From Branchiostoma lanceolatum (Eukaryota > Chordata > Leptocardii > Amphioxiformes > Branchiostomatidae), in NCBI RefSeq assembly GCF_035083965.1, contig NC_089727.1, positions 2,361,501 to 2,425,500 of the forward strand: a DNA stretch of 64,000 bases, given 5' to 3'. The stretch's first letter is position 1. Each line of letters opens with the position of its first letter. A program made the position numbers and the translations under genes. Below, one piece after another: positions 1 through 38,986 of this stretch. The notes beneath the pieces are model-generated. The model was not told the DNA's origin. It saw only the letters and a list, made by a program, of their open reading frames with translations, and did not search any database.

Positions 1-875
1 TCTTGAAAGTCTTTGGAATTTAAAAGTCTGGACTCTAGAGTACAGAAAGCGGAGACATATTCTGCTACCAACAGGACATGTTAGGTAAGCCTCCCCACGT
101 CAAAACTTTTTAGACCTTAATCTCTTTGCTCACAAGGTTTGGCTTTCAATATCAAGGCTTAGGGAGTCAGACAATTGCAGCGGTTACGGGGAAGACGTTA
201 AATCATAGCCTAAGCTACTACATGCCAAATATTCTGAGCAGTCCCGATGTTTAAGGCGGGAAAGGGTTCAACCAGTTTCCCGCCTTTTGGCACTGTGTAA
301 GGGAATAGAGTGCCCAGTAGACGACAGGTGTCTTTCATGTGGAATAGACTTACTTATGTGGCAGCTTGTAAAAAAGCTTACCACGCATAGTGATAAATGT
401 ACGCATTGGCGGCATTGGCATCTTGGAGAGGCAGAGTCGATTTTCTCACCAAGTCTTAGCACAACCAAACTTTCTTTTCATGTCCTCAAACGATGTTGCG
501 TTGTCGATTTTGCTTTTTGTTTCTTTTGGACACGATAGCTAAAAAAATTAGATTTATATGATCTTACCCGATAGACAAGCCCTCTTGAAAAGAATATGAA
601 TCTGTTTTTAGAACTATCTTCGTTATTCTTCAAATGGATTCTTCATTTCACAACTTGTTGAATCAGAGATTAACTCCTCTCAAGGCTCTCAGTATGCTGT
701 GTGATTTTTTTTTTAAATCCCGTTGATGTACTTGAGAATATTCATGACTATACCTATATATGTACAGTTTACATGTTTTATGGGGAACATCATTTCAGTG
801 GTTCACTGTTATAAGGAGATCTATATTTTCAGTTGTATAACAGTTAAGTGCATCACTCCTTTTGATGTATAGAAA
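1..875. other. 5' flank of the LRR-Ig gene, no gene recognised
   Basis: I see no convincing coding sequence here. A short open stretch on the + strand near 287-538 is cysteine-rich but matches no family I know. The sequence just before the ATG at 876 ends in TTTTGATGTATAG, which resembles a splice acceptor, so the 5' UTR may continue in an exon upstream of the window. Confidence 0.6.
253..286. promoter_or_regulatory. Inverted pair of E2F-like sites
   Basis: AAGGCGGGAAA (253-263) and TTTCCCGCCTT (276-286) form a perfect 11-bp inverted repeat with a 12-bp spacer. Each arm contains TTTCCCGC, which fits the E2F consensus TTTSSCGC. It lies about 600 bp upstream of the receptor ATG. Regulatory use is inference. 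Confidence 0.35.
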
Positions 876-5529: not shown

Positions 5530-8500
5530 TCAAATATCAAAGTTGATGAAGTAGGTATCGACGAAGGAAGGAACTATGGCCCTGAGTTTCGTCAGAGTCC
5601 AGCACATGGACGCCGGGATATAGACCTCGCGGGCTCCGGTCGCCCCGCCCCGGATGATGGCCCGGGCTGTCTCGTCAACAGGGACCGACATCTTCAGCAT
5701 CTCTCGTCCCTTCTCCGTTTTCTGGAAGACATTGTGTGTTTTTTCACATGTAGGCCTATGAAGAAGAACTTTATTTGCACGACAATTGTATCTGGTACAA
5801 TGTATGACAACGTACTCACATGAAAGTCGAGCTATTGCTAATATTTAACAAATACTAAGAACTAGTCTAAGCTATGACTAACAGTAGAAATAATCTACAG
5901 AATAATGTACATGCTAATGCTCTAAAACAGTATGTGTGATGTGTATATTCGTTATTTGTTCACTTTTTAGAATGTAACGAAACTCTGTCATTCAGGGTGA
6001 TTTTTCTCCCTGCTCATGTACGTCTGCACTTGGTGATAATAATGAATGATTAAGCTGCTTAGCATTATCGTGGCGTCTCTGATATGACGCAATATGACCC
6101 TCTTCTGCGTCATATTTACGTCATATTTAGGTCGTATTACGTCTTCGAAAAATGTTCTAAAAATGTTCTACGTTCGCAAAACACCAAGCAATCTACTTGT
6201 ACATTACAATCCAATCCAATTGCAATGCCTTGTATGCATATCAGTAAAATAAATCAGTGCCACTGAGGCAGGTCATTTCATTAAAATCATTCATTCATTC
6301 ATTTGATATGGCGTAATATGACTTTAATATGACGTGATATGACATATTGCTACGTCAGCTGTGGTGGTGGGTGGAGTTGTAAGAAAAAACTGGTTCACGG
6401 TTTAAACTGCGCATGCGCTATGTGATGCATTGTGGGTATCATGTCAAATTTGAAGGCCCCTTAGACATAAATGACGTTATATTACGTAATTCAGCAACTC
6501 ACACGAAGAGTCTAAGACTATGTCAGTACATACCTGCATAATTTTCTCCGCCGCGGGCGTTCTGATCATGCCGAGGATCGGCAGGGTGACGGACACGTCC
6601 TGCTGAGCCTTCATCAGTTCCACACGGAGGGAGCTGAAGAACCCGTCCAACGCGAACTTCACGGTTGCGCCCCAGGTCAGGTTAGGAAATGGAACCTTTC
6701 CTACAGGTACAAAGGTTCAAACAGAACTATCAAGGTTGGGAGATAAAAATGTCAAGTCGGAACCGTTTCTGAATTAGACGTTCACAAGACATCCAGCAAT
6801 ATGCTTTTACAATCAGGTGTAAAAAGATATAGACGCACAACACAATACTATCTCATTGTAATGTCAAGAACTAAGAGAAAAAGCCAAAGAACAGCAAATA
6901 GATAGCTGCGGGCTGAAACCTGAAGGAAAACATAGCCGGGGAAGACCCAAGACTACCTTGAAAAGTATAGTCTTGAAGGATAGGGGAAAATTCGGCTTAA
7001 AAACAACGGGGGAAATGTAACCAGAGCCGAAATGTCCGGAGGAGCACCATTTGCCGACCTATACAACACTGATGTTGTGGAAGGTCTAAGGTAAGGTAAT
7101 GTCTTGTATGCATATCTTTATGTCTTGCCCTTGTTCTGTATGTACTCTGCCCTCTTAGAAACCAACTCTTATCAGTGGAAAGAGCAGGAAAATCCACAGG
7201 AACGTTTGTGAAATATTACCAATGATGGCTGAGACAACAATGAGATGTCCTTTGCTCTCCTTCAGCAACGGCAATGCCAGGGAGGCCAGCCGGACGTAAC
7301 CAACCACATTGATGTTCAAGTAGTCTATGAAGAAGTCCATATCAGGGTCCTCGTCCCAAGACTTTGTCCCGAAGTATTCGTGAATGTTCTTCTTACTTGA
7401 TCCTTCGTGATTAAGAACTAGATAGTCAAGACGTCCTGAGAAAAGAGAGGAAGGGGCTGTTACTGAAAAAAAATTGATTTTAAGAAATACCTTCGATGAT
7501 GTGCCATCAACGTACCTTTCAATCGTAATATGTTATATAGAATCTCGCGCGTGTAAGGTGCATCTGCCTGTGTTTGTCTGCGTGTGCATGTGTGTGTGTG
7601 TGTGTGTGTGTATGTGTGTGTCTGTGTGTGTCTGTGTGAGAGTGTGTGTTTGTATGTGTGCGAGTGTGTGTGGGGGGGGGGTCTGTATTTGCGTATGTCT
7701 TTGTGTATTTATCTCTCAAATGATCTTCTGTCTTATTCAAGAATCCTTCGATAGACATATTTCGGCTACGCGCTTTTCATCAAATCACTTTTGGAATGCA
7801 TCTTGTTTGGCCCTACCGAATTTCTCCCTGGCTGTTTGAATGGTTCTCTCACAGTCCTCCGCCTTCCCCATGTCCCCGGCCACGTAGTGCGCCTCCTGGG
7901 CACCCAGAGACTTCGCCTTCGCTACGACCTGAAGGAAGCAACATTGTCAGTCAACCTTTACAGTTGAGTCGGATCGTCTAATGCAACACTGTCACAAGAC
8001 TCTAAGAATAAGACGTGACAAGCCAAGTGCCTGCTTTGGGGGTATTCACACAAGACGCAACCATCAAAAGTCGCTCTTTTTTTCACGAATGCCTTCTCAC
8101 CTCCTTCAGTCTGTTCTCCCTCCTGGCTGTGATGAGGATTTTTGCTCCCAGCCGGGCGTACTGGTACGCCATCTCTTCGCCGATACCGGTACTGCAGCCT
8201 GTGATGACGACTGTTGCGCCGCGTATCATCTCTGGAAAGAACAGACGTCGTTTTCTCTATGCTGTATTTCTCCTTTCCTTTACACAATTAACATTCAGTA
8301 CGATTGTTAGATATACTAATGGACACTGCAACTATGTGTGCTATGCGACGTGCTGCTTAACTAAGGGTTTGAAATTAATAGTAGCTTGCGCAGGATATTA
8401 TTTTGAATTGGGAACATGATCAGTGAGTATCCTACGTAAAAAAGGGTCAAGGTTCAACGTACGAAATGTCACTTTCAATGATCCAAATTATCTAGGTTTG

Positions 8501-8763
8501 TCCAGAAAGAAAGTATACCAAAGATCGCACTGGGACAACGCCTTGCAACAACTTGCAACATTATGAATGTAATGTAGGTCAGATCTACAATGATACATGC
8601 AGATCAGGTCGTCGGGAACAAGAGGTCATCGGTCACCCGGTTACGTATCGAATACAGAATCTAGTTGAATCTTACCTGGATCGAAGCCATCATAGTTCCA
8701 GTAGACCCCGATCCCAACCGCGGCCAACACTACCATAAGACTGGCCCACGCCAGACGAGACAT
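5530..8763 (-). CDS. SDR copy A, 11-beta-HSD1-like, catalytic Ser and Tyr replaced
   Basis: Six exons on the minus strand: 8676-8763, 8101-8231, 7817-7928, 7220-7435, 6534-6700 and 5530-5721, all with GT-AG borders, giving an uninterrupted 301-residue protein. The N-terminal membrane anchor is about residues 4-22, with Arg3 before it. By analogy with HSD11B1 the catalytic domain would face the ER lumen. The NADP-binding motif TGCSTGIG is at 40-47, and TARR suggests NADP(H). The active-site Asn in YLNIN is kept. The Ser position (VVSAIIG, residue 180) is Ala and the Tyr of YxxxK is Gly193 (WGATVK), with Lys197 kept. The KFALDGFFSS segment is typical of the HSD11B1 family. Reading frame, splice sites and length are intact, so this looks like an expressed protein without classical SDR chemistry rather than a pseudogene. 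A steroid or retinoid ligand is only an inference from the family. Confidence 0.88.
5761..5812 (-). mobile_element. LINE 3' tail fragment in SDR-A intron 5
   Basis: GAAGAACTTTATTTGCACGA and the following bases match, in reverse orientation, the 3' tail at 10670-10720 and the copies near 30825 and 47056. It is a 5'-truncated retroelement end. Confidence 0.5.
7577..7680. repeat. TG microsatellite in SDR-A intron 3
   Basis: An imperfect TG tract, interrupted by TCTG and CGAG units and ending in a run of nine or more G. It lies in the intron between exons 3 and 4 of SDR-A, antisense to the gene. Confidence 0.9.
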
Positions 8764-8858
8764 TATGTGATACAGAGGCGGGTATTGTGGTACGGTACAG
8801 ACTACTAGTAGCACGGTAGGGTCGAGGGTTAAAGGTCACCAGGGGTCATACAGAGGAG

Positions 8859-8887
8859 CACTTCCGCGTTTATCTCGTTCCCAGGAT
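8859..8887 (-). promoter_or_regulatory. Conserved upstream element of SDR-A with ETS-like site
   Basis: CACTTCCGCG followed by TCTCGTTCCCAGGATC (with a small insertion) about 96 nt before the ATG. The same block lies 91 nt before SDR-B and 97 nt before SDR-C. On the gene strand it reads CGCGGAAGTG, an ETS-like core. Conserved spacing suggests a proximal promoter or transcribed leader. Confidence 0.45.
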
Positions 8888-8939
8888 CGTAGTAACTTTT
8901 AACCGTGGGACTTCGCGTGCTAGTAAAATTGCATTGTGC

Positions 8940-9980
8940 AATAGAATTTCTCCATATTCGGCACTACGGTCATTAAGTATGTTATAACTTGACTCCACTG
9001 CATTCGGTACAATTGCTGAGTATACTGATGAAATTGCACTGTATTTAATGACATTTCTAAGAATACAATCCCACTGTATTGTTAAGTATGCTAATGAAAG
9101 TCCACTGTATTCGGTACAATTGTTAAGTACGCTGATAAAATTGCACTGTCACTTAATATGAATTTAGTTCGGTCGCGTATAATCTAATTTGTCTTCAGAA
9201 ACTCAACGTTTGTAACGTTACATCTAATCACAAACCTATGTTACCTCTTATAACTGTTATGTCAGCACCACTCTCTCCGTGTTTCTTCGATTTGCGGCAT
9301 CGGATGGTCTCATTCTTCTTCTTGTAGGTTGGTCATGTTTGTACATTATTTGTCTTCTACGTTGTACATTCTGTTCAGTGGTGCTGTTATTGATGTAAGC
9401 GTATCACTTGAGTAAGGCACTACTGCATGTGTATCTAACTATGTTTTAAGATCCTAAAGAGAAATGCATGATAGAGAATCTGCAATGCTCGTAATTTAGT
9501 TGAAAGTGTCAGCCTTTTTAGCTTTAGTGCGCCGCTTTGGTAACGCGGGAAGCAATGAAGAGAGCGTTAAGGTCGTCCTATAGCCTTTTTGAGGCCATAG
9601 GGGCAGTGGGTTGCTATCCAGTGTCTAGGGCGCGGTATTGGCAAGCAGAGACCAACCCCTCTTTCCCACCGCCGTTTACCTCCCCAACCAAAGTCTGATA
9701 CCGATTTGCATACCTGGGTGGAGTGAGGAATGCCGTGTGAAGTGCTTTTCCCAGGAAGCGACAGGAATCGAACCCGTGACCTCAGGCTTAATCTCGTGTT
9801 CGCTAGACTAGCCACTCGGCCACAACAGAGCGTACTGACGCCAAAAAGGCTAAAAGGAAACGACCGAGAGCGCGTACTAAGATAACATGGCTGGCATGAG
9901 AAGCAACCGAGAGAGCGTATTACAGCTAAATAGGCTAGCATCCGGGCTGTTGAAAGTGCTTCGGGGGAATCAGCATTTAA
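8940..9980. repeat. Segmental duplication also found at about 15690-16077
   Basis: The run GATGAAATTGCACTGTATTT with its flanks, the CATTCGGTACAAT phrases, and the later GTGCTTCGGGGGAATCAGCATTT stretch all recur in order near 15710-16077 beside the SDR exon-2 relic. The block therefore travelled with a piece of an SDR copy. The first copy carries an extra SINE at 9572-9832. Confidence 0.7.
9572..9832 (-). mobile_element. tRNA-derived SINE
   Basis: On the minus strand it has a pol III A box (GGCCGAGTGGCTAG) and B box (GGTTCGATTCC), then a tail with 'cctgggaaaagcactt', 'ctcactccacccagg' and 'ggtggg'. The same tail follows the tRNA-like heads at 43095 and 45552, so it is one SINE family. There is no cloverleaf acceptor stem, so it is not a tRNA gene. 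Confidence 0.8.
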
Positions 9981-10011
9981 ACCTACATTTTCATAGACGA
10001 GAAGTTGCAAT

Positions 10012-10729
10012 AAACTAAAAACCTACTCTAAAGTCAAAACTGACTTCACATTGGAAAATTACCTTTCACCAATTCGTAATAAAACCTTTATAGGTAACAT
10101 AACTACTGCTTGGAAAAAAAGTCACAATATACCAGCCAAACAGAGACAATGTCCTTCATGTCAAGATAGCGTTGAAGATAAATATCATTTTCTAATGACA
10201 TGTCCCGTATTTACTGTAACGTTAGATAGACAAAAACCTATGAATCTGATCACTTGTTAATCCAGTAAACCCTTGCCAAGGACAAACACAGACATTTTCA
10301 ATCTACTTATGTCTTGCCCCGACACTGTATCCACGCACTTAGTCCAATATATAAAAAGAGGGAATGTATTATAATAGACAGAAACGTTTGACGTACATTA
10401 TGGCAATACGCAATTTACATTCTTGTAGTAGTAGTTTTTGTAGAATACACTAGTATGATATCTAATGTATTGCTTACTCTCCGAGCAGAGGAGGGGTTCC
10501 GGCTGGTTTTTGACGTGTTTTTAGGCGTTTTTGTCGGGATTTCTGCTTTGTCATTTTTTTTGTCTCTACAAACAAATAAAAATGACAAAGTAGAAAGCCC
10601 GACAAAAACGCCTAAAAACACGTCAAAAACCAGCCGGAACCCCTCCTCTGCTTGGAGAATATCATTGTTGCCATACATTGTGCCATGTACAATTGTCGAG
10701 CAATAAAGTTCATTCATTCATTCATCCGC
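10012..10729 (+). mobile_element. 5'-truncated LINE: ORF2 C-terminus, 3' UTR and CATT tail
   Basis: From about 10012 the + frame reads KLKTYSKVKTDF, LENYLSP and then a zinc-knuckle-like CPSCQDSVEDKYHF..TCP (C-x2-C-x8-H-x4-C), ending with TAA at 10258-10260. This is the C-terminus typical of deuterostome non-LTR reverse transcriptases. The 3' UTR runs to ACAATTGTCGAGCAATAAAG and a (CATT)n tail at 10711-10725. A foldback element (10477-10659) is inserted in the UTR. The tail overlaps the last codons of SDR-B on the other strand. Confidence 0.75.
10477..10659. mobile_element. Foldback MITE with CTCTCCRAGCAGAGG ends
   Basis: Two arms of about 80 bp are inverted copies (CCGGCTGGTTTTTGACGTG against CACGTCAAAAACCAGCCGG), joined by a T/A-rich loop. 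Apparent open frames in it on both strands are by-products of the palindrome. Related ends occur at 33567-33815. Confidence 0.85.
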
Positions 10730-13700
10730 ATTAAGGACGGCGTCTACAAGGCTAGGTAGGAAGGGTCGCAATTTCGCCAGAGGCGAGACCATGGACGGGT
10801 AGTAGATCTCGCGGGCGCGGGTCGCCCCGCCGCGGATGAGGGCCTGGGCTGTCTCGTTCATGGGCGCGGCCATCTCCAGCATCTCCTGTCCATTCTCCCT
10901 TTTCTGTAAAAAAGATTGTATCTGCTTTACTAGCCTGATTTAATCGCGCTTATAGCTAGGGTCGCATTTCCCAGCCGGGGCCCGACCGGGATGTTTGCGA
11001 AAACGAAAAATAAAATATGCATATCAAGAAAATACACAATTTCTAGTTAGGGGTAAATTTCTTACGTTTTGTGTCTTTTGTCTTTTATATCATACTTTTC
11101 GTTCCCGCAAGCTACCCGACCGGGCCCCGCTTTGGAAAAATGTGACCTAAGCATAACCGGTCGAGGGGAGGGGCCATTGCACCCCTGGACAGCTGGAGTT
11201 TGGGTTATGCAGATTACTGTTTTACTTCTTCTGGATCAAAGTTGAACTGACTTCCAAAGAATGTTTAGAATGCATTTTGAGTGTGCCGGTTGCGCCGCTG
11301 TCGAATATTTGAATACCGGGTTTATATGAAGATTACAGACCCACAAAAGCCCTCTGATTGGTCGACGACATCTGGCTATATGATAATATCCACAAAAATG
11401 GACCTACCCAAAAGTCATTCGAGATCAACGTTGTAATTTTGAACCCGAAAAAATTGACTTGCCCAAATTTTCGACTAATCAACTCCATTCTTTGTAAAGA
11501 AATGAGTAACCCACTGCTTCTGTTACGTCACGTTTTACAGATACGACGCGTGACTCGGTGATTGCTCATTCTTTGACAAAGACTTATCTTGAACAGTCGA
11601 AAATTTGGTCCAATTTTTTTTTTGCGTTGGAAATTGCAGTTCAACTTTAATCCAGAATGACTTATACCAACGAATATGCCCAGCATAAGGTTCATAAATA
11701 AACGTGACACAGAACAGTCTACCATACCTCATACATTTTCTCCACAATCGGCGTCCTTACGAAGCCCACAATAGCCAGGGTGACGGACACGTCCTGCTGA
11801 GCCTTCATCAGTTCCACACGGAGGGAGCTGAAGAATCCGTCCAGACCGAACTTCACGGCGGCGCCCCACGCCATGGTGGCGAAGGGAACTTTTCCTACAA
11901 ACGAGAGAGAGGACGATCAAAGGTGGGAGCAAAAAGCTAAGTGTTGACGTTGTCTGTCAACTTTGATGTTCGTGGAACACTGAGTGATGGTGATGGTCTG
12001 TGAATGTTATGTTTTTAGGCCCAGTCACATACAAGGTTACGGAGCTATCCGCCGACATGATCGGTCTACGACAACCCTTGACGTCAGATCAAGACAGCTG
12101 AATTTTACACGACACTCATCCACGACTTTCAGAATGTCCTTACGTAGTAAACCTTAGCCTCCACTAGGCCGTCCTACGGGCGTATGGATCTTAGAATTCG
12201 GCAGAAAAAGGAATATTTAGCCAGTAGAATGAGTCCAAGGTGACGATCACATGCAAATGAAACTCTGGCGAATATTCTCCCTATAGCCGGCGTAGTTAGT
12301 CTGGTAGGTAGGTAGGTTGGTTGGTTGGTTGGTTGGTAGTCGACGTGCTTACGCACAATCGGGGTTATACCGCCCCTTACGGGGTGACATACCTGGCTGA
12401 TACAAGACGGGGATGCACCAGTTTCCCGTAAGTCTGCTGGTAGAGACTAAGTAAACCTGTCGATTGTACTAAATGTACGACGTTTGTGTCAGGGCCCTTA
12501 CCATGAATACCGGACATGACCACGAGATGTCCTTTGCTCTCCTTCAGCAGAGGCAGGGCCAGGGAGGCCAGCCGGACGTAACTGACCAGGTTGACCTTCA
12601 AGTAGTCCACGAAGAAGTCGATGTCAGGGTCATCTTCCCAAGACGTCGTGCCGAACATCTCGTGAATGTTCTTCAAGTTCGACCCGTCATGGTTCAGGAC
12701 TAGATAGTCAAGATGCCCTGATAGAAACCAATTGTTAACGCTTGAAAGCCACTAGTAACATTTGGAAGCAAATGCATAATGTTTACCTTTACGTGGTCCA
12801 GCCTACAATTCATTGTTCTGTTTCCTTTACGAGTAACCATGGGGACAGCCACCTGTTCCAGGTCGTTGACCTTACTTGTTTGGAACGGAAAAAGAAGAAG
12901 AGGAATCCAAAAGGAGAATCTGAAAAGGAGAAGAAGAGGGAGAAGAAATGTAGGAAAAACAGCATGCTTTCCTTTCTCGAAGGTACCCCCACCAAAAGAA
13001 ATCAATAAAATCTATCACCGTCTTTACACAGTCATTTTCACCTGTTTGATATAAGTAATGACATGATAGTTTTATGTTTGATGATAATATCTACCGAATT
13101 TCTCCTTGGCTGTTTGAATGGTTCTCTCACAGTCCTCCGCCTTCCCCATGTCCCCGGCCACGTAGTGCGCCTCCTGGGCTCCCAGAGACTTCGCCTTCGC
13201 TACGACCTAGAAGGCGGAACTGAATTGTCGGTCAAATTTACAGTTGTCACAATACCAATGAGGATTTAATTAGATATTTAACTTAATGTGATCATTTATT
13301 AATACAAAAACGAAAGTCACACACAAGTGGAACAGGTGCAACAAAGTATAATTTCTTAATTAAATGATTTCTATATTGACATTATATAATTATATATTAT
13401 CCCACTTCTGACACCATGTCAGGGGTCCTATCTGAGACAGAAATGTTCTTATATCGCTAGCCTCCGTTGCAGGCTTCTTCACGGCGATTTTTAAACTTAT
13501 CGGGGCCAGAATCTTTGGCTGGGGGCCGTATTTGCTTGAGGCCCCGACGGTATCAGTTTGGGATACGGTCCCCTAGCAGTATTATATCGCTGGGTTGTGT
13601 TCCTAGCTGAAAACGCGAATGCTTTATTTACTCATTCCCTCATCAGATGTTCATGCGCATGTGAGAGTCTGAATCTTCTCCTTAGGGGTCTCTCGTACCC

Positions 13701-14783
13701 ATGCATGTTATTCTACGTCAGCTCATCAAAATAAATCACTTGCTACAGATATTCTCACCTCCTTCAGCCTGTTCTCCCTCCTGGCTGTGATGAGGATCTT
13801 TGCTCCCAGCCGGGCGTACTGGTACGCCATCTCTTCGCCGATACCGGTACTGCAGCCCGTGATGACGACCGTGGCCCCCCGCAGAGACTCTTAAAATCAT
13901 AGACGTCGTTTTTATTAATTAAACTGCATTTCATATCATGATTAGGCTTCCAACATTATCATTCTGTGCAGTTTGGTTATCAATGTCTCACGTGAGAGTA
14001 GGTGTTAGCTACATTTAAATGTATCTCCATTGTAAATATGAATGTTAACTTCTTAACTCAATACCTTACCGATTGTGTGTTTAACGTAATGATCACGTCC
14101 CCCCCCCCCCCCCGTTAGCCCTTACAAATAGCTTTCGCTAGTTGGGCAACCCTGGCATTTAGATACGCTGTACATGCTAAACCAATAAGTAAATTAGCTA
14201 CCAGCGTGTTCTTTTGAACAAGCAAATTGCTAACTTTCACCCATGACATGTTAAGATAACCAAATATTAAACTCTATCGCATGGGAGGTAGAGTCAGAGA
14301 AAGTCAATGCATTCATGTATACAAAATAGTGACCAGCCCCTCCAGCATTTGCTACACTATGTAATCGAACACCACAGGGTGTCTGCTACTTTACCAGTAG
14401 CCATGGAGACAGCCCGGCTCTGGTCCTACAGGTCGTTGACCTTATTTGTTTGGAACGGAAGAAGAGGAAGAAATAGTATAGCTTAGAGCATTGCTAAAGG
14501 ACAGACTACTTGAAGTGTTTCTTAATGATAACATACAAAAAACGCTGAGCCTCCTATTCCTCAGCTCGTTCTAGTTACTTGCCTACCAACACGTATAGGG
14601 TCACAGTCAGGGAAGGAAAGACAGTGTGGCACACGGACGTCGATTTGCAACATTGTAAACTAGATTGAGACTATATTATGTTGAATCTTTACCTGGATCG
14701 AAGCCATCATCGTAGTTCCAGTAGACCCCCAGCCCAACCGCAGCCAACACTACCACAAGACTGGCCCACGCAAGACGCGACAT
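10718..14783 (-). CDS. SDR copy B, 11-beta-HSD1-like, catalytic Ser and Tyr replaced
   Basis: Six exons: 14693-14783, 13759-13889, 13095-13206, 12502-12717, 11728-11894 and 10718-10903. 300 residues, with splice phases as in copy A. Exon 1 has one extra Asp codon (NYDDGFDP). Anchor about residues 4-22, TGCSTGIG at 41-48, active-site Asn in YLKVN. Gly181 (MSGIHG) stands where the catalytic Ser belongs, Gly194 (WGAAVK) where the Tyr belongs, and Lys198 is kept. Exon 2 uses TTTTAAG as its acceptor instead of the CAG of the sister copies, but AG is intact. The C-terminus (NADE, stop) and its TGA lie in the CATT tail of an antisense LINE, so the original C-terminus was replaced. Coding is otherwise intact. 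As with A and C, SDR catalysis is not expected. Confidence 0.87.
12155..12310. mobile_element. MITE of the TAGCCTCCAC family in SDR-B intron 4
   Basis: Starts TAGCCTCCACTAGGCC, continues with TTAGAATTCGGCAGAAAAAG and ends with CTCCCTATAGCCGGCGTAG followed by TTAGTCTGGTAG. Relatives are at 30447, 32282, 32485, 34853, 46222 and 55585. Confidence 0.7.
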
Positions 14784-14873
14784 GATGCAGGTTTATCGAG
14801 CAGCAAAACAGGTGGTTTACACGAGACACAAAACAGGTGGTCGCACGAGAGGGTGTAACCGGGTCAGAGGCTA

Positions 14874-14899
14874 CACTTCCGCGTCTCGTTCCCAGGATC
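14874..14899 (-). promoter_or_regulatory. Conserved upstream element of SDR-B
   Basis: ACTTCCGCGTCTCGTTC then CCAGGATC, 91 nt before the ATG. It is the cleanest copy of the element shared by SDR-A, B and C. On the gene strand it holds CGCGGAAGTG, an ETS-like core. Confidence 0.45.
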
Positions 14900-15196
14900 T
14901 CTATCGTACACACATTACACCGTTTGGCCAACGTGGAGTTTTCTAATAGACATAGTAAGGTGTAAACCAGTAAGTCTTCCGGTAAGTTTTGGTAGTCTAT
15001 ATTTTGCAGTTCAAGTCCGTGTTCTTCCCCCTTTTCTGCGAAGACTTCGCCTCGTCCGACCGGCTGCAGTACCGTTATCAATCGCTATCACACGTCGGGC
15101 GCTATTATACATTGGCGTATACGCTAGATCATATATGACATTATTATTATACGCTACCATACATTGCTCTCATCAGCAGAGATAACCAATGGTGGG

Positions 15197-15362
15197 AAGT
15201 GTAGTCTTCTGAGTTCTGACCAATAGCAGGTCAGGATTATTTCCAATTGGCCAATCGCAGACCAGCATTGTTTTCACCGATGGTGGGTGAGTCGATTGTC
15301 TTTGGCCCGATTTCCACACAAGTTTTAAGAGTCGACTCGGGGCTTTGGGCTGCTCAAAAGTA
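15197..15362. repeat. Upstream segment shared by SDR-B and SDR-C
   Basis: Phrases such as CCAATCGCAGACCAGCAT, GACTCGGGGCT and TTTGGGCTGCTCAA recur in order at 19282-19455 upstream of SDR-C, including CCAAT boxes. The duplication unit therefore included more than 600 bp of 5' flank. Confidence 0.7.
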
Positions 15363-15414
15363 CCGCTACTTGAGTGTAATCCCCAAGCCGGTCTAGCGAT
15401 TACAAAGACCATAT

Positions 15415-15590
15415 CCAACTGGCAAAAAGGAGTTTTTATTGGTTGCAAATTGGATAAGGCCTCTGCAACCGTTCGATCTGCTTGGATGAGGACCTTTGCT
15501 CCTAATCTTCAAGCAGATCTAACGGTTACAATAAAAACTCCTTTTGCCAGTTGGATACGGTCTTTGCAACCGTTAGATCTGCTTGGAGAT
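15415..15590. mobile_element. Small foldback element upstream of the SDR relic
   Basis: CCAACTGGCAAAAAGGAG (15415) is inverted at 15538-15555 as CTCCTTTTGCCAGTTGG. An inner pair, AACCGTTCGATCTGCTTGG and CAAGCAGATCTAACGGTT, is also inverted. The motif ATCTGCTTGGAGATTA recurs near 15587, 27468 and 30652 as an element end. Confidence 0.6.
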
Positions 15591-15593
15591 TAC

Positions 15594-15684
15594 TTTGCTC
15601 CCAGCCGGGGGTACTGGTACGCCATCTCTTTGCCAATACCGGTACTGCAGCCCGTGATGACGACTGTTGCACCGCGCATTGTAT
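15594..15684 (-). pseudogene. Relic of SDR exon 2 (fifth copy)
   Basis: On the minus strand, after a CCAG acceptor, the frame reads ATVVITGCSTGIGKEM and YQYPRLGAK and then hits TAA, where intact copies continue ILITARRENR. One Ala codon has become Pro. There is no exon 1 or exons 3-6 nearby. The flank matches sequence upstream of SDR-A (8955-9130), so an internal deletion joined exon 2 to the gene's 5' flank. Confidence 0.85.
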
Positions 15685-16077
15685 CTGGAAAGAACAGACG
15701 TCGTTTTGTCTATGCTGCATTTTCTATATTCGGCATCACAGTCAATAAGTACATGTATGTTATAAGATTCCACTGCATTCGGTACAATTCCCAAGTATAC
15801 TGATGAAATTGCACTGTATTTAATGACATTTCTAAGAATACAATTCCACTGTATTTTGCACAATTATTAAGTATGATCATAATGAAAGTCCACTGCATTC
15901 GGTACGTTTGATGAAATTGCACTGTATTTGGTAAAATTGCTAGATTGCTGGTGAATAACAACAAACAACAAGAACGTAAAGCTAAAAAGACTGGCACGGG
16001 AAGCGACCGAGGGAGCATCTCGTTAAAACTGTCTGTTAGTAACAATTGGAAGCGCTTGGGGGGAAGCAGCATTTTTT

Positions 16078-19000
16078 TTACACCTCCATCTTCAACATGA
16101 GGGTGTCTACAAGGTTAGGAATGAAGGCTCGCAGTTTGGCCAGAGGCCAGACCATGGACGGGTAGTAGACCTCGCGGGCGCGGGTCGCCCCGCCGCGGAT
16201 GAGGGCCTGGGCTGTCTCGTTGATGGGCGCGGCCATCTTTAGAATCTCCTCTCCATCCTCCCTTTTCTGGAAAAAGAAATTGAATCCGTTTTACTTCTTC
16301 TGGATCAAAGTTGAATTGCAATTGCCGACAAAAAATTAACCTACCCAAAATTAATTCTAGATCAAAGTTGAACTGTAACTCCCTCACATCATGTCCGAGC
16401 TGGAGTCGACCCTAGGATCGAACCCCAGGATCCACGGAATTTGATCTAGATGAGATGGCGAAGCAGCGGGGTTGCGTGATGCTAGGGTCACATTTCCAAT
16501 GCGGGGCCCGGCCAGGTAGCTTGTGGGAATGAAAAATACTATATAAAAGACAACAAAACTTACCCCTTACCATAAATTATGTATATTCTTGATACGCCTT
16601 TTTATTCTTTGTTTTCTCAAAAAGCCCGGTTGGGCCCCGGCTTGGAAATGTGACCCTAGCATAACCGCTTGCGTCACGGGGACGGTTCAGAATTACAGTA
16701 CAGTCTACCATACCTCATACATTTTCTCTGCCATCGGTGTTCTTATGAAGCCCACAATAGCGAGAGTGACGGACACGTCCTGCTGAGCCTTCATCAGTTC
16801 CACACGGAGGGAGCTAAAGAACCCGTCCAACGCGAACTTCACGGCCGAGCCCCACGCCAGGGTGGCGAAGGGAACTTTTCCTACAAACGAGAGTGGGAAC
16901 GATCAAAGGTGGGAATAAAACTGTATTGTTGTCGGTGACATACCGGTATTTATACCCGCGTGAAATACCGAACGCTGACAATACCGAAAAAAAATCGATT
17001 GATTGTGAAAGATACTGGGCTCCAGATCTACAGGTGCCTGGAAAGAGTAGAAATTGGCCAAATAGACAGATAACATGCCAGTGGAGTTAGCCGACCGGAC
17101 AGTACAGTTTGTTCAGGAATAGGCAAACTGTACTCCCGGCCGGTAAATTTCTCTGGCATATTATTTGTCTATTTAGCCAATTGCCACTCTATTCGGTCAC
17201 CTCTGGAGCATGATATAGATACATGCATCAAGTTTTACGCGCGTTATACAATATTTTTGTGGCGTAGGATTTTCAGCGACGTTATGACAGGGCTAACAAG
17301 GTTGACAAGGATCTACAGGAACCCGTACCGTCCACGATAGTTAGATTTTGCGCGACACATCCGCGACTTTCCTAAGAATTTTCTGTCGCAAACCGGTCGT
17401 GCGACGAACCCTTACCATGCACACCCGACATGACCACGAGGTGTCCCTTGCTCTCCTTCAGCAGTGGTAAGGCCAGGGAGGCCAACCGGACGTAACTGAT
17501 CAGGTTGACGTGCAGGTAGTCCACGAAGAAGGGGATGTCAGGGTCGTCCTCCCAAGACGTTTTACCGAACATCTCGTGGATGTTCTTCAGGTTTGAACCG
17601 TCGTGGTTAAGAACTAGATAGTCAAGACGCCCTGAAATACATCAATTGTTAACGCTAGAAAGGTAACATTTGCAAGCAAATGTATAATGTTTACCTTTAC
17701 ATGGTCAAGCCTACAAACCAGTGTTCTGTTTACTTTACCAGTAACCATAGGGATAGACACCTGGCCTGTTCCAGGTCGTTGACCTTATTTAGTTGTTTCA
17801 TTTAATGAGAAAACATTGATATCTACCGAATTTCTCCTTGGCTGTTTGAATGGTTCTCTCACAGTCCTCCGCCTTCCCCATGTCCCCGGCCACGTAGTGC
17901 GCCTCCTGGGCACCCAGAGACTTCGCCTTCGCTACGACCTGGGGGGGGGGGTGTATGGGGGACAGAACGGTCGGTCAAATTTACAACTGTCACAGCGTTT
18001 GACAATGAGGGTAAAAACATGTGACGTCATATGGTGATTTATTAATACAAACATGACATAAACGTCGCACATGAAAGTGAGACAGATTATTTCCATGTGG
18101 TCATATTGTTCTATAGCATCCCACTACTGATACCATGTTACGAGTCCTGTCTGATCTTGGAATGGTCTTCTACCGCTGGGTAGTACCACTAGTGAATAAC
18201 TCCATTAAGCATTGATGCAGTTTCTGTTGCTTTATTCACTCAGAGGTCTCTTGTATGCATGCATGTTTGTCTACGTTACCTCATTAATATCAACCACTTG
18301 ACACATTGATATATTTTCACCTCCTTCAGCCTGTTCTCCCTCCTGGCTGTGATGAGGATCCTTGCTCCCAGGCGGGCGTACTGGTACGCCATCTCTTCGC
18401 CGATGCCGGTACTGCAGCCCGTGATGACGACCGTAGCCCCCCGAAGAGACTCTGGAAATCATAGATGTCGTTTTTATCAAACTGCATTTCTTTTTATGAT
18501 TAGGCTACCATGCTTACAGCATAATTATTCTGTGCAGTTTAATTATCTATTAGTGTCACCTAAGAGTAAGAGTTAGCTTACCTTTAACGTTAGCTACCAG
18601 CATGTAATGTTCTTGAGAACAAGCAAATGATTAACTTTCGCCCATTACGTGTCAAGATAATCGAAGATCAAGGTCCAACTTATGGTGGTACAGTCGGAGA
18701 ACTATCGTTGAGTGGAATTCATTACCACCGAGTACAGTAGGAAAGTTCTCACTAGACAGCTTTAAACAACGCTTGCAGCTAGATATTCGAAGGTTAGGTG
18801 TGACGGTGCAATACAACCACTTGCTGCTGTGCCGCGTGCATGCAAAGCTGGTGTGTTACGTTACAAGGATTGCCATGGGAGCACGTGCCTACTAACACGT
18901 GTTGGGTTTTAGAGAAGGTGAAATAGTATTGTAAGACTTGCGAGATTGTATTAAAATAAGAATAAGACTGTAACGTGAACGTTAGTACGTCAAATCTTAC

Positions 19001-19088
19001 CTGGATCGAAGTCATCGTAGTTCCAGTAGACCCCCAGCCCAACCGCAGCCAACACTACCACAAGACTGACCCACGCTAGACGAGACAT
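16078..19088 (-). CDS. SDR copy C, 11-beta-HSD1-like, catalytic Ser and Tyr replaced
   Basis: Six exons: 19001-19088, 18321-18451, 17827-17938, 17416-17631, 16714-16880 and 16078-16266. 300 residues with an uninterrupted frame. Anchor about residues 4-22, TGCSTGIG at 40-47, Asn in YLHVN kept. Gly180 (MSGVHG) replaces the catalytic Ser, Gly193 (WGSAVK) replaces the Tyr, and Lys197 remains. It is closest to copy B in exons 4-6 (shared MSG, KVPFAT, EKMYE, RGGATRARE), so B and C are probably the youngest pair. The exon 3 acceptor has a pure C tract before CAG. Residue Pro in DPDIPFF is unique to this copy. Intact frame and splice sites argue for an expressed, non-catalytic protein; the function is unknown. 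Confidence 0.88.
17010..17211. mobile_element. Foldback MITE (AGTAGAAATTGGCCAAATAGA family) in SDR-C intron 4
   Basis: GCTCCAGATCTACAGGTGCC and AGAGTAGAAATTGGCCAAAT on the left are mirrored on the right by CTATTTAGCCAATTGCCACT and CACCTCTGGAGC. This is a diverged member of the family best seen at 27260 and 34888. Confidence 0.7.
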
Positions 19089-20352: not shown

Positions 20353-23300
20353 CTAATGCATAACGTCATCAGCGAAGTATTCACTCAGTTGCGGCAGCAG
20401 AGATATGAGTTTTGTGATAGACCAGACGTAGGAGGGATAGTAGATCTCCCGGGCGCGGGTCGCCCCTCCCCGGATAATGGCTTGGGCGGTTCCTTCCACC
20501 GGAGCGGCCCATTTCAGTGCCTCTTCACCACCGGGTAATGTCTGAAAGAAACAAAGAAAGATGAAAGAAGCGTACAGAAACTCTTGAAAAACAACCAACG
20601 TTTGCAGTAATTGACGGAAACACCTCGTAAGAGCGCCAGCTTTAGCTCTTCACCGATTCAAGCATTCCGGAATAAAGCGAAGAGAAACGTTCTTAAATTT
20701 AAAAGAAAAAACGGACATTAATCTTTTATTTACACCCAGAAAAAAAACCTGTAGTCTGCGAGAGGAGTAGAATACTATTTGTCGAAGTACATTTGAAACA
20801 AGAAATGCTTACACAATAACCCGCTCGGGAAATGCTCGGCAAACCCTCCCGTCCTCAGCCCTGCTCTTTTGAACGGACATTTTGGGTATTGGGGGCGTCC
20901 CTGGCAGTTGCTCATAAATAATTAATGAGCTAGCCTTATTTGGCACAAACAGCGGTTAGTTTTACCATGAATAATTAATGAGCTAGCCTTACTAGTATTT
21001 GGCACAAACAGCCGTTATTTTGTTCTGAAATGTACTGAGACCGGGAAGGTTTGCCGAGCATTTTCCGAGAGGGTTTCAGCGCTACTAAAGGAGGGTGTCT
21101 GGGGGAAGTGACATTTCATCATACTGGCAAAGTTTCGATGATTTTCGGAGTGGCGATGAAACCCAGCACGGCGAGAGTGACGGACACGTCCTGCTGAGCC
21201 TTCATCAGTTCCACACGGAGGGAGCTGAAGAACCCGTCCAGACCGAACTTCGCACAGCTGTAGAAGATTAGCCCTGAACCTGGTATTTTCCCTACAGAAA
21301 GCAAAGTACAAGTTTACAGTTTAGCCGCTATGCCACGAAGCTCCTTCCGTAGTAGTCCTTTCCATGACTTCTGGTACCGACACCCCTCACAAGAAAGCTT
21401 GTCGCTGAATCGCACAACAATGTATCTTCCTAATTTCAATTCATTCACAATATCAAAGCATGCTCCTTGAATTTTTGAGCCAAGAACTTTCATTTACCCT
21501 TTTGATAGCACGATGATGACCTGAAATCTTGACAATTTTAGTGCAATACCCCGTTCATTTCTTACATTGGCGCAGATTTCAAGAACCAACAAAAACATTT
21601 TGCGGAAGCACATTTCACAATTTCTGGTTGAAATTTACTTGTAATAGATTTCGAGGTCGAAATGCCCCCCCTGAACTAAGCCGAGACCCTAGTACTTCGG
21701 GTTTATATCGACTCTAAGGAACATTGATGGTAACCTAACTTACCTTCTTCAACTTAACAAGGCAACACAGTGTAGCGCGTGTTGTAACCTTACCGAAAAT
21801 GGAAGACACGACCACGATGTGCCCGCTGCTCTCCTTCAGCAGAGGCAGGGCCAGGGAGGCCAGCCGGACGTAACTGACCAGGTTGATGTTTAAGAAGTCC
21901 ACGAAGTAGTCCACATCCGGGTCTTCGTCCCACGACTTGTCCTCGATAAATTTCTGTTCTAGAGTCTTGAGACTGGATCCAAGATGGTTCAGCACTAAGT
22001 AGTCCAACCGACCTGAAGTGGTTTAAAGATACTTTTTTTACCATACAGCTATGTGCTGATTTCCTGGCGAAACTTCTTTTTTAATAGTATCAACCTTATT
22101 GATGGCATAGGCGGATAACACATTGCACGAAAGGGCTTTAAACACTGTTTGCATGCATATGGATAGTTATCACACGGTCCGGAACACCCGTATCAGGCCA
22201 AGGTATGACATAAATGGCCATAGCTATTTATATTTCACTTCCCATACCTAGAGGTATGGGTAGAGTGAAATATATTGTATTTGTCTGGTTCTTCTTCTTC
22301 TTCTTCTCCTCCTCCTGACAAATCTTCAAATGGCTTCTACTCCGCCATTTCTTAACCAACCGACCTGAAATTTGGTGTGGAGGTTAGGATGGCAAATACC
22401 CCCAGGCCCTTTTTTAATTGTTTTGAAACAGGCCTTAAAATCCATTTTATGGAGGTTTTTTGGGGCATTTTTAGACAATTTTTATATTTTGGGCTCCTGT
22501 GCCCTGGTATTACAAGCGAATGACCCGGAATTCGGCACAAGGGTGCCTTGAACATGTCCCTACAGGATTTCAATCACATTTCTGGTGTACATCACTTCAA
22601 AATGCTTCGTTTTGGGGGACTTTTGGACCCATTTTCAGACCAAAAACGGGTCAAAAGTGCTGTCCCCGTTCCATGTTCTATCTAAGAATCCATGTTCTAT
22701 CTAAGGTTCCGGGCGTTCCATTTGCTGCTGGCCAAAGAACATGTGTTCTTTTCAGGTTACCTGAGGTCATGTTGCAGGTAAACACGCAAGCCTTTGCACT
22801 AAGAAGCTCTTGGCGTCTCGCAGAGCTTGAATAGAGAATTTTTTTTGCACGGGTGATTTTGAAACAGTCAATTTATGCATCGGGAGGGACTCCGAGGGAG
22901 ATTGGCAAAGTATGATGCTCTCGCAAATGTTGCCAAATAAACATGGTTTTTGGGGCATGGTCAAATTTAATTATGGCGGCTTCAACCACTAATAAATCAC
23001 GACTTGACGACGAGAAAAATGCAATCCGTCTCTGAATTGGTTGTGTCGCACTTATATACAACTTATAATTAAACCCATACCAACGATGATGATATACCAC
23101 TAGGCCGAGGTAGGCCGATCTGATCGATTTCGAGCAGGTTTGCATGCAGTTTCACTTTCCGCACCAACAACCTTTGACCCAGGAAGTAATACTTCACAAG
23201 CGCCTCTCAAAGCGCGATCGTCTACACATGATGTGAATGAATATCGGCAAACTTTTGAATTGTTGAAATAATTTTACTGTAAAAAAGACAGGCATTGTTG

Positions 23301-26300
23301 GCTTTTTATGCGGTAGTTATCTAGCACGTTTTTAATAGTTCATTTTGCATTGTAGGGGTTCAACACAACTTTAATTGTTAATACTTTTTGAATAGCAAGG
23401 TTAAGATTAGACTAGAAATTTCATATGCTATTTATCTCATAATGATTTAACGTTACATATGAAATTGTTTTACATAAAATAAACCAATGTCGGTTCGGCG
23501 GCCTTTGTATGTGTTTTTACGAAGCCCCCCCCCCTCCTAATAGTAATAGGTTGTTCCGAACAAAGTTCAAAGATCACGTCGTAGCCGAGGACGCATCGTT
23601 CGATTTCATCCAACTCGGCGTCCTCTATACGTACAAGGACGTTTTCTTTGCTGTATACAACTACAACAACCCACAGAACGTAAGAAAAGAACGACCCTGT
23701 TGTGTTGGGAAACATGGCCACTGCAGCTGAACGTCCAGTTGTGCTTCTTTTCTCAGACTCGATATGTAAGTATATCGCGAACCATTTACCGCCATCGCAT
23801 TTTAAGCTTTATGTACGTGCAAACCGTGGTGCGAAAGTTGCTGATGTTGCTGCAAACATTTACCATCACCACAATGCTGACTTTGGTATACCTACTGTAG
23901 TTTGGGTACATGTTGGCACCAAAAATCTCTCGAACGGTCTACAGGAAGTCATGAGAGACTTTGACAAACTGATTGCCATTGCAAAAGACCGCTTCCCCAC
24001 ATCTACTATTGTTATGTCTAGTATTTTGCCAAGACTTGACAAAAGATGCATAGATGATAGACGTGTTACTGTGAACACAGAGTTGGCTGCGCTGTGTAAT
24101 TCTCGGGGTGTTCGGTACTTCTAACACTGTCCTTACATACTATAGGTGATATGTGTGAAGGCACTGGTCCAACATGGGCATCTCCAATACCAAAACTGTT
24201 TTCTTCTGAGACATTTGACTCAATATGTGTGATCAATAATGTCTTTGTTCAACAATTCTACTCGGCTTGGACATAACAAATCTCATTCTCCTGTTTCAGT
24301 CCTACAGATAGGACCCCCCCCCCCCGATGGAAACAGAACTTGGTCCATGAGAAGCTGGATGGGGCAGACAGACCTGGATTGCAACTAATTCTTGAAATAT
24401 GTATAGTTCGACACAGATGTACAGTTTCCTTTAATTTGTTCATATTATTGTCATTTACATGAACTAGTTCTTGAAATGTGTATATTTGGACACAGATGTA
24501 CAGTTTCCTTTTGTACATATTATTGTCATTTACATACATACATGCAACATGATTGTGATATGAGGTTCAATTTCTATAAGTAAAGCTGTCTGGATTTGTA
24601 GTGTTTATTATACGTGTATCTTTCCATATGACCAAGTATACAAAAAATTATATAGATTTTGGGACAATCTTTTTATTATTTCTTAATTCCATTTAAATAC
24701 ATGCGATAGAGTTGTGAGAAAAGTATAAATTTACAATTTTGTAAGTAAAGCTCTCTAGCAGAGTTGTATAGTTTTGTATATTTGCATAGTGTTTGTGCTA
24801 TTTTACAGGGTGATGCATAGTATTGTACTTTTATATATAGTGTATAGTATTGTTGTGTATCTTTGCATATGTTCAAGCATGTTAATGAATGTAGATGAAG
24901 AATAAATAGATCTTGGGAAAGTCTAGTTGTGTTTAGATGGAACTTTGGATGGTCCATTTCGTCAAAAGATCAATTATTGCATGGGGGAGGGGGGAAGTGA
25001 AATATGCTGAATTTGCTCTTAAAGCAAATGACGGCCAGTCTAGTTAGGTATGTATTTGTTTGATTGTTTTATTTTGTTTTGTTTTGTTTGAACCTTTGTT
25101 TATTCTTGAGAAGCTCAAATCGGCATTGAGGTCATGGGGGAAGAGGTAAGGGTAAAATATAATAGAACAGAGATACACAGTCATTTAAGTCCTAACTCTA
25201 TCAACATATATCATTACATATATACGGTACAACATGTACAATCGGTACGACATACAACATATAGTACGGCGAAAGCTGGTTCATGGTCCGTGTTCGTTCG
25301 TTTTGTTCATTTCCGTTATTTCAAGAGTCCCTTAAACTTACTTAAAGGAAGTCAGATTCGGAGCAGTACGTGTGTCTGGTGGTAGGCTACGGTATGAATG
25401 CATGTTTGTAGAGAAGCCAAGTCGGAGGAAGAACCGCACCGTCACGGCACCAACCCCGGACTCATCCTTCCCCTGATGCTAAGTTTTTGTACCTTTGTTG
25501 TGTTTAGAAGCATTGTCAAAGCCTTTATGCTGTAGAAAATATGTTTTCCAATACAGTTACAAGAACATATCTTAAACTTTGACTCCATTCCAGGTCGATG
25601 GGGGATCTCTGAAAGGACAGCTGCTCCACTGGGTTCAGGACAACAAGGAGCTTTATCAGTCTGTTTTCTTTTGTTTCACTTTTTTGATGTCATAAGAATT
25701 CCCAAGACTTGTATTGAAATGTACTGTAATGTATAATGTATTTTGGCGCCAACTTTCCCGGACTCATCCTTCCCCTTGTGGCCACCAGCGACCATGCACC
25801 AGACGTGGACAAGGCCCTTGAAATCTCAGCCAGCGAAGCCAAGCCAAGAGATGTTTGTATGTATTTTATTGTATTGTATGTATGGCCATGACGATTGTAA
25901 TGGCTTAAGTTATTGGGCCTACCGAGTTTCTCCTTGGCTGTTTGAATGGTTCTCTCACAGTCCTCCGCCTTCCCCATGTCCCCGGCCACGTAGTGCGCCT
26001 CCTGGGCACCCAGAGACTTCGCCTTCGCTACGACCTGCCAGAAACGTGTAACTCAAGTTTAGATAAGAATTTCAATTGTAGCATTTATGCATTTCCAAAA
26101 TTTCCCCAATCTCACGTAAACCGATGCCTTCTCACCTCCTTCAGCCTGTTCTCCCTCCTGGCTGTGATGAGGATCTTTGCTCCAAGCCGGGCGTACTGGT
26201 ACGCCATCTCTTCGCCGATACCGGTACTGCAGCCCGTGATGACGACTGTGGCCCCCCGCAGAGACTCTGTAAGACACAGAAAAAAAGGGTGAAAAATCTT

Positions 26301-26912
26301 AGCTCCTCTATAGGTTGTTGGAAAATAGTAGAAATTGGCCAAATAGAGCGATTAATACGCCCTTGCGCCACAAGAGGTCCCTAAATTGCAAAATAAACTC
26401 CTTTGGCTGGCTACTCATCGGGCGTACTACTGTTAGCCATTCTAGTTTGGCCAAGTTCTAATATTTTTCAGCAACCCATAAAGTCTAGTAGAGACTACAA
26501 AAATGTATTGTGCGCACTTCATTGTTAAAGTAGTCGTGTTAGTGTTTCCGCTGTGCATGCATATGGTATTCAAAATCACATTTCAGCAAACCTCTAAAAT
26601 TCACCAAAGTAACCCGAGATGCCATACTTGGCTATGTCAGTTAAGTGTGTCGTTCGATATATCGATCCATACTGAGCCCTTGACTACCAACAGAACTTGG
26701 AGTACGTCTTTGATCTAATACAAGACAGGACACAGTCTTGGCAGAACACTCTTACAGTCGGGGAGCAGTATAACCCCGCAGTTTGAGTCATTAGTGTGGA
26801 CCTGCATTATAAACTGACCCCCACCTGGATCGAAGCCATCGTAGTTCCAGTAGACCCCAATCCCAACCGCAACCAACACTACCACAAGACCGGCCCACGC
26901 TAGACGAGACAT
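20353..26912 (-). CDS. SDR copy D, 11-beta-HSD1-like, active-site residues intact
   Basis: Six exons: 26825-26912, 26136-26266, 25923-26034, 21794-22012, 21125-21291 and 20353-20541. 301 residues. Anchor about residues 4-22, TGCSTGIG at 40-47, Asn in FLNIN. It has Ser181 in VVSSIFG and Tyr194-x3-Lys198 in FYSCAK, so the classical Ser-Tyr-Lys set is complete. An oxidoreductase on a steroid-like carbonyl or alcohol is plausible from the family. Exons 1-3 are almost identical to A-C, but exon 4 (one extra codon), exon 5 5' end and exon 6 diverge. Intron 3 is 3.9 kb and carries repeats and an SGNH fragment. The intron 1 donor is GTGGGG rather than GTAAG. The gene is therefore either a conversion mosaic or two partial copies lying in line. 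The phases join correctly, so I annotate one gene. The ATG is chosen by alignment with the other copies. Confidence 0.75.
22287..22316. repeat. TTC/TCC microsatellite within a dispersed repeat
   Basis: TTCTTCTTC units then CTCCTCCTCC, followed by 'gacctgaaatttggtgtgg', a phrase I associate with dispersed repeats. It is in SDR-D intron 3. Confidence 0.7.
23702..24124 (+). pseudogene. SGNH/GDSL-hydrolase-like fragment in SDR-D intron 3
   Basis: 140 codons on the + strand, opposite to SDR-D. VVLLFSDSIC matches block I (usually GDS) and VVWVHVGTKNLS matches block III (usually GxND, here GTKN), with FPTSTIVMSSILPR in between, as in SGNH esterases. It stops after CNSRGVRYF, before the C-terminal DxxH block, so the domain is truncated and the block I Gly is Ser. 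Such domains are found in LINE ORF1 and other mobile elements, which fits its place in a repeat-filled intron. The coding start is uncertain: two in-frame ATGs, at 23702 and 23714. Confidence 0.6.
24388..24540. repeat. Two tandem units of about 80 bp
   Basis: TTGAAATATGTATAGTTCGA and ACACAGATGTACAGTTTCCT, ending ATATTATTGTCATTTACAT, is repeated once right after itself with small differences. Confidence 0.75.
25590..25668 (+). other. Orphan exon-like fragment
   Basis: After a CCATTCCAG acceptor-like site the + frame reads VDGGSLKGQLLHWVQDNK and ELYQ, with codon use like coding DNA. No flanking gene on this strand. It could be a captured exon or a transposon piece; I do not recognise the family. 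Confidence 0.3.
25747..25862 (+). other. Second orphan coding-like fragment
   Basis: The + frame reads GANFPGLILPLVATSDHAP and DVDKALEISASEAKPRDV. The phrase GLILPL also appears in a shorter copy at 25446-25480 (GTNPGLILPLM). Both lie in SDR-D intron 3 on the opposite strand. Probably pieces of one foreign gene or element, unidentified. Confidence 0.3.
26303..26485. mobile_element. Foldback MITE in SDR-D intron 1
   Basis: GGTTGTTGGAAAATAGTAG and AAATTGGCCAAATAGAGCGA on the left, and GGCCAAGTTCTAATATTTTT then CAGCAACCC on the right, form diverged inverted arms of the AGTAGAAATTGGCC family. Confidence 0.7.
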
Positions 26913-38065: not shown

Positions 38066-38986
38066 GAGGAGGGCATTAGTTTTACAATTTTCCAGCCATG
38101 CATACATTGATGGGGGCTGCGCGCTGAGCTGGCGGGGGGAAGGCCCCGGTGGGCGGAGCGATGGTAGCGGATATGTGTGAAAAGATTGATCTGATTGAGT
38201 GAACGCGCGCACGCACGCCTGCTCCCTGCCGCGTACAAAACCCCGCCTCCGGTAGCGCGGGGAGCTCAGTCGGCAGTGAGACACCAACGCGTGCGGACCT
38301 CACTAGGACCCTGTCGCCTTACATTCTAGTCGGGCCGCGGTAACCAGGCCAAGGGGTGACCGGGAGGTTAAGAGTGCCGACCTGCCGCTTGGACTTTAAC
38401 GTGCTGGACTGCCAAGCTGTGTGTGTGTTTTGTGTGTGTACATACAAGCGATTTTGTACTGTGGAATTTCGGCTGAACGGTGCAGTGCTCTTCTTCGCCT
38501 CAAGGGTACGCGTTAGGTGCTTAGACACTGTGACGGACTCCAGGATTCTCTTCTATTCATTCTCACCGCTCGCCCAAGACAAGTTTGCCAAGGAGGGCCG
38601 TCCCCGCGGTGGCACCAGTATCTTATCGTCGGATTCTCGCGGGCTGCGTTTGAATTACTTGTAATCTATTTCGCCGAGTGCTACAAAGTGTTTCGTCGGA
38701 AGGAGGGATTTGACTTCCAATCGCTTTGGGGTGCCGCGACGGGTAGGATTTTACTTCGCAGGCCGGGAAGTCAGGAGATGTGCGGCTGGGAACTGGCGGA
38801 TCCTCAAAGAAAGGCGGACCGTTAACGGTGAGGTGTCTCTCTGTATTTCATCTACAGCCACACACTGTCGGAAAGGCGGGGACTTATACGGGACTTTGCG
38901 CGGTAAGAGCCACCTTGGTACAGTACTTCTGTTGAACAATTTTACGGGTTTGTTTGTAACTGTGTGATAAAGAGACGGAGAAAAGA

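Follow-up and report, generated by a model that had tools for sequence, protein, structure and literature searches.

Three genes of a tandem SDR array lack the catalytic Ser and Tyr of their family, and their reading frames are nevertheless intact. The array lies within the stretch of 64,000 nucleotides analysed here (the window) and raises the question of whether such copies are decaying duplicates, enzymes that work by another route or proteins kept for a role other than catalysis. The first-pass annotation, made from the letters of the window, had proposed a selected pseudoenzyme family, for example a redox or steroid sensor or a partner of the fourth copy.

Each of the copies A, B and C is a complete gene of six exons on the minus strand, and the three form a tandem array together with the fourth copy, D. 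The exons of all four copies were located by tblastn, and their boundaries were set by us on homology and splice signals. Copy A (5530..8763) consists of exons 8763-8676, 8231-8101, 7928-7817, 7435-7220, 6700-6534 and 5721-5530 and encodes 301 aa. Copy B (10718..14783; exons 14783-14693, 13889-13759, 13206-13095, 12717-12502, 11894-11728 and 10903-10718) and copy C (16078..19088; exons 19088-19001, 18451-18321, 17938-17827, 17631-17416, 16880-16714 and 16266-16078) encode 300 aa each. Copy D (20353..26912, also on the minus strand) has exons 26912-26825, 26266-26136, 26034-25923, 22012-21794, 21291-21125 and 20541-20353 and encodes 301 aa. All five introns of each copy are of the GT-AG type and the exon lengths of A-C result in the same phases as in D, so that the intact frames, lengths and splice sites described in the first-pass annotation are borne out. 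The intron-1 acceptor of B (TTTTAAG) has a weak pyrimidine tract, with the AG present. A hydrophobic N-terminal segment, judged by eye, is found in A-C and is probably a membrane anchor. A relic of a further copy is located between B and C on the minus strand (15593..15691). It comprises 33 codons of exon 2 only (tblastn with the exon-2 peptide, E 2.5e-16), and the same tblastn search gave no adjoining match to exon 1, 3, 4, 5 or 6 at E <= 0.01.

Intron 3 of D is long (3910 bases vs 195-381 in the other copies) and contains a 146-aa open frame on the plus strand (23684-24121) that has no Pfam match at E <= 0.001 and is perhaps part of a mobile element. Elsewhere in the window, an LRR-Ig gene is encoded on the plus strand at 873-3569 as one open frame of 898 aa from stop to stop. 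Its tail carries 13.3 copies of a 51-base repeat with 13 YEND/YGND motifs; YxN is an SH2 (Grb2-type) docking motif. At 38960-41341 (plus strand), a long protocadherin-like open frame of 794 aa contains six stretches that match Pfam cadherin.

The assignment of the array to the classical SDRs is supported by Pfam. The adh_short domain (PF00106) matches all four copies with E-values from 2.2e-36 (A) to 1.2e-39, including 9.3e-37 for B, and the only Pfam matches in any copy at E <= 0.001 are the overlapping SDR-type domains adh_short, adh_short_C2 and KR. No PIP/NmrA-type atypical SDR domain was found in A-D at this threshold. Besides the adh_short Rossmann domain, A-D have the TGxxxGxG motif and the catalytic Lys and Asn of classical SDRs; the catalytic Ser and the Tyr of YxxxK are present in D and missing from A-C. 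PDB chains were searched with C and D as queries, and the best 60 matches of each search (out of 409 in one and 461 in the other) were considered. For both queries HSD11B1 is the first match (E 1.1e-51) and, among the matches listed, the closest solved relative, the next chain of a different name having an E-value of 1.1e-18 (C) or 5.5e-19 (D). A, B and C share 72%, 73% and 73% identity with D. A-C resemble HSD11B1 in the glycine-rich motif, the tetrad Asn and Lys and the LDGFFSS helix. They differ from it by the lack of Ser170 and Tyr183 and by about 10 extra residues ahead of the catalytic Asn (11 in D). Among the genome contigs searched, only one distant bacterial locus was recovered as a relative, and a search of viral contigs with C as query returned none.

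The tetrad of mouse HSD11B1 is described as Tyr183-Ser170-Lys187-Asn143 in an excerpt of PMC3694296. All four residues are retained in D, and Asn and Lys are retained in A-C together with the cofactor motif TGCSTGIG, which occurs in all four copies. The Ser site is occupied by Ala in A and by Gly in B and C (codons GCC/GGT/GGT vs TCC in D), and the Tyr site is occupied by Gly in all three copies. The Tyr column reads GGC in A-C and TAC in D, two base changes apart. The Lys-site motif FYSCAK of D is accordingly replaced in exon 5, which carries the altered active-site helix WGATVK in A (6534..6700), WGAAVK in B (11728..11894) and WGSAVK in C (16714..16880), each on the minus strand. Of the five positions that precede the Lys, all five are changed relative to D in A and in B, and four are changed in C. 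A Ser directly N-terminal to the catalytic Ser site is present in all four copies, and the position two residues after that site carries His in B and C and Ile in A. The three Lys-site motifs and TGCSTGIG are as given in the first-pass annotation. A shifted alignment that would restore a Tyr at K-4 is ruled out: the active-site block aligns without gaps among the four copies, and the HMMER alignment of C with human HSD11B1 is gapless from the Ser to the Lys site. Because A-C share both the GGC-encoded Gly and the WG..VK remodelling, the Tyr would have been lost in one event, in an ancestor common to the three copies that had already separated from a D-like gene.

For comparison, 80 distinct SDR stretches resembling D or the A-D profile were collected from prokaryote genomes and viral contigs, a non-random set in which about half of the prokaryote stretches come from one genome (G001). 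Among the 79 with a letter at these columns, Tyr is found in 73, Ser in 73, Lys in 77 and Asn in 71, leaving six without Tyr and six without Ser. Judging from this set, loss of the SDR Ser or Tyr is uncommon, yet not unique to A-C. Three bacterial SDR-like proteins of genome G001 (L016, L022 and L025) are without the catalytic Tyr, and L016 and L025 have Val in its place and keep the Lys.

Selection on A, B and C was estimated with a GY-type codon model (F3x4); the codon analysis covers four sequences with conversion among them. Across the whole gene, omega is 0.232 for A-B-C and 0.193 for B vs C. For A-B-C it is 0.120 in exons 1-3 (p vs 1: 9.4e-8), 0.205 in exons 4-5 after removal of homogenised tracts (89 codons, p vs 1: 5.6e-10), 0.290 in exons 4-6 without these tracts (149 codons, p 1.6e-10) and 0.466 in exon 6 (p 0.014). 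The corresponding values for B vs C are 0.160 in exons 4-5 minus tracts (p 3.2e-6), 0.299 in exons 4-6 minus tracts (p 6.8e-5) and 0.827 in exon 6, which is not different from 1 (p 0.72; NG86 ratio 1.07). Exon 6 of A vs B (0.348, p 0.0066) and of A vs C (0.378, p 0.011) rejects 1. Exons 4-5 have thus been constrained after the catalytic loss, and the last exon between B and C is without detectable constraint. With this exception the genes are under purifying selection although their catalytic motif is lost, and the dN/dS expectation of the first-pass annotation holds in exons 1-3 and outside the tracts and fails for exon 6 of B vs C. As far as sequence can tell, A-C are selected genes that have lost classical SDR chemistry.

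A two-ratio fit on four taxa gives 0.204 for the A-B-C clade vs 0.055 for D plus stem in exons 4-5 (p 0.04) and 0.289 vs 0.055 in exons 4-6 (p 0.0015). The higher omega of A-C would fit a partly relaxed constraint, a comparison of little weight given that the D branch is saturated (length ~5). In a neutral simulation with assumed loads of 0.30, 0.12 and 0.12 per site for A, B and C and no indels, the frames stayed stop-free in 0.0005 (A), 0.055 (B) and 0.058 (C) of 2000 trials each.

The silent sites show that the four copies have not diverged evenly. Fourfold codons identical in all four copies amount to 11/13 in exon 1, 13/21 in exon 2 and 16/17 in exon 3, together 40/51, vs 7/31 in exons 4-6 outside two tracts (Fisher p 8e-7). 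Over the six pairs, dS ranges from 0.02 to 0.33 in exon 1, from 0.06 to 0.43 in exon 2, from 0.04 to 0.08 in exon 3 and from 0.55 to 1.71 in exon 4. The two tracts, alignment columns 159-173 and 200-224, are near-identical in all copies, with the same fourfold codon at 15/20 positions, although their Fisher p of 0.0004 is optimistic as they were picked after viewing the data. Stretches identical in all four copies measure 73, 50, 35, 32 and 29 nt; under permutation the 95% maximum is 21. When runs were tested for conversion pair by pair, most were non-significant: among the top runs listed for the six pairs only two passed, both of B-D, one spanning codons 155-169 (p 0.0005) and one codons 32-36 (p 0.008), without correction for how many pairs were tested. 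Homogenisation is argued mainly from the silent-site counts and the four-way identical stretches.

The introns behave differently. Those of D and A have no blastn match (E <= 1e-3) to the same-position intron of any other copy, and all five B introns match C introns. D intron 1 matches part of C intron 4, probably as a repeat. Intron 2 of A and of D begins with roughly 12 shared bases, and the limitation to exons is hence not strict. The pattern is most simply explained by gene conversion confined largely to exons; the alternative is extreme silent constraint.

Gene conversion may have helped to preserve the cofactor half of A-C, above all exon 3. The kept cofactor half, on which the first-pass annotation had relied, is partly confounded as evidence for selection because it is partly homogenised with the complete copy D. 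Exon 3 is uninformative in this respect. Exon 2, where TGCSTGIG is encoded, has been homogenised less than exons 1 and 3, and its high dS values involve A. Its support for selection is real but limited: at silent sites A has moved away from B, C and D in this exon (dS 0.30-0.43), with omega at 0.11-0.14.

By homology, the two tracts correspond to helices alphaE and alphaF, the dimer helices of SDRs. Here D and human HSD11B1 share only 9/15 residues in columns 159-173 and 14/25 in columns 200-224. In the alphaE segment D is identical to each of A-C at 15/15 residues, and in the alphaF segment to A, B and C at 24, 25 and 24 of 25. The active-site stretch between these helices is identical to D at only 11, 10 and 11 of 26 residues.

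The reading that we tentatively favour, at somewhat less than an even chance, is that A-C are non-catalytic NADP(H)-binding subunits that partner a D-type catalytic subunit. The starting point is that the proteins are constrained and therefore do something. Being intact HSD11B1-like proteins incapable of classical SDR alcohol/ketone chemistry, they would fold and dimerise via the unchanged alphaE/alphaF helices, pairing among themselves as well as with catalytic subunits of the D type, and the active subunit would be stabilised or tuned by them in the way that DHRS3 acts on RDH10. This scheme presumes that A-C bind the cofactor and dimerise, and likewise presumes co-expression and regulation. 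Two points make a role as partner attractive: A-C have the same dimer helices as D, and activation of a partner by an inactive SDR subunit has a precedent. An excerpt of PMC1326212 describes alphaE and alphaF as the main subunit contact of SDRs, where most homodimeric SDRs of known structure pair, and the DHRS3 mutant Y188A, itself inactive, still binds and activates RDH10 according to part of PMC7022914. Y188A is thus a model for an SDR subunit that activates its partner without catalysis of its own, whereas natural DHRS3, in the same text, is catalytic when bound to RDH10. Dead paralogues that activate a live enzyme are also described, in excerpts, for the trypanosomatid AdoMetDC prozyme (PMC5201418) and DHS (PMC3663545), which, in contrast to A-C, belong to other enzyme families. 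Several points speak against a partner role: the identity of alphaE/alphaF can arise by gene conversion without selection on dimerisation, the kept Lys and Asn would also be needed by a Lys-dependent enzyme, and the last exon evolves loosely, with an omega of 0.83 for B vs C. DHRS3 and RDH10 are related to A-C only through the SDR superfamily.

The main rival, which we consider less likely, holds that A-C are still active as NADPH reductases, dependent on the kept Lys, and that a hydroxyl of the substrate fills the hole left by the exchange of Tyr for Gly. Such an enzyme would account for the retention of Lys, Asn and the glycine-rich motif and for purifying selection that is stronger in exons 4-5 than in the last exon; the Gly at the Tyr site would leave room for the substrate, and the new His of B and C could help. 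Eugenol synthase and the PIP reductases are atypical SDRs. They provide a precedent in that they combine the SDR fold and a kept Lys with the absence of the catalytic Tyr; in eugenol synthase, exchange of the Lys for Ala or Gln abolishes activity and the hydroxyl of the ligand lies roughly in the place that the Tyr hydroxyl would take (PMC1991597, in excerpt). The pseudoenzyme proposal of the first-pass annotation is supported by the gapless alignment as regards the loss of classical Ser/Tyr chemistry; given this precedent, its further step to a non-catalytic role is a putative one. Against a Lys-only enzyme, A carries Ile in place of the His, the Lys is at the edge of a homogenised tract, which makes its retention partly uninformative, and A-C match the classical adh_short and resemble HSD11B1, unlike the atypical group to which the eugenol-synthase family belongs.

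It is rather unlikely, in our view, that A-C act alone, without D, as ligand-holding proteins that sequester or sense a steroid, a lipid or NADP(H). The kept fold family and cofactor motif and the divergence of the active-site stretch from D would suit this role, but no sequence feature names a ligand, and Pfam shows only the overlapping SDR-type domains. Decay is disfavoured and very improbable. Recent duplicates held open by conversion from D would explain the homogenisation of exons 1-3, the unconstrained exon 6 of B vs C and the one-exon relic. Yet A and B have diverged strongly at silent sites (dS 0.45) with every frame and splice site intact, frames are seldom kept in the neutral simulation, and outside the tracts that were homogenised the codon model rejects omega = 1 and with it neutral decay of A-C.

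The partner reading can be taken a step further: a single live HSD11B1-like subunit would have three dead ones dedicated to its regulation, with conversion keeping much of the cofactor half, above all exon 3, and the dimer helices alike and selection holding the active-site stretch apart. We consider this version a long shot; if true, largely exon-limited conversion would keep dead and live subunits mutually compatible.

Conserved inactive SDRs and loss of the Tyr are already known. HSDL1 belongs to a different SDR branch and has the Tyr replaced by Phe. It is reportedly a conserved inactive SDR (Meier 2009, cited in PMC9859523) and is similar to A-C in being retained by evolution despite its inactivity, as they are constrained despite a broken tetrad; A-C differ in having lost both Ser and Tyr and in forming three tandem copies that adjoin a complete one. 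Among the matches listed in searches of open papers (titles and abstract starts) for amphioxus or Branchiostoma with 11beta-HSD, HSD11B1, SDR or pseudoenzyme, nothing concerned these genes. Similarly, among the open papers listed none was found to describe HSD11B1-like genes in tandem of which three are constrained with a broken tetrad and another is complete. This array is apparently the undescribed part.

The patchwork of homogenisation is a warning that motifs kept in tandem paralogues are not evidence of selection without a check of silent sites. The array would offer a natural setting in which to test how catalysis is given up in SDRs and what the fold then serves and, if the organism is an amphioxus, bears on the regulation of steroid or lipid metabolism in early chordates.
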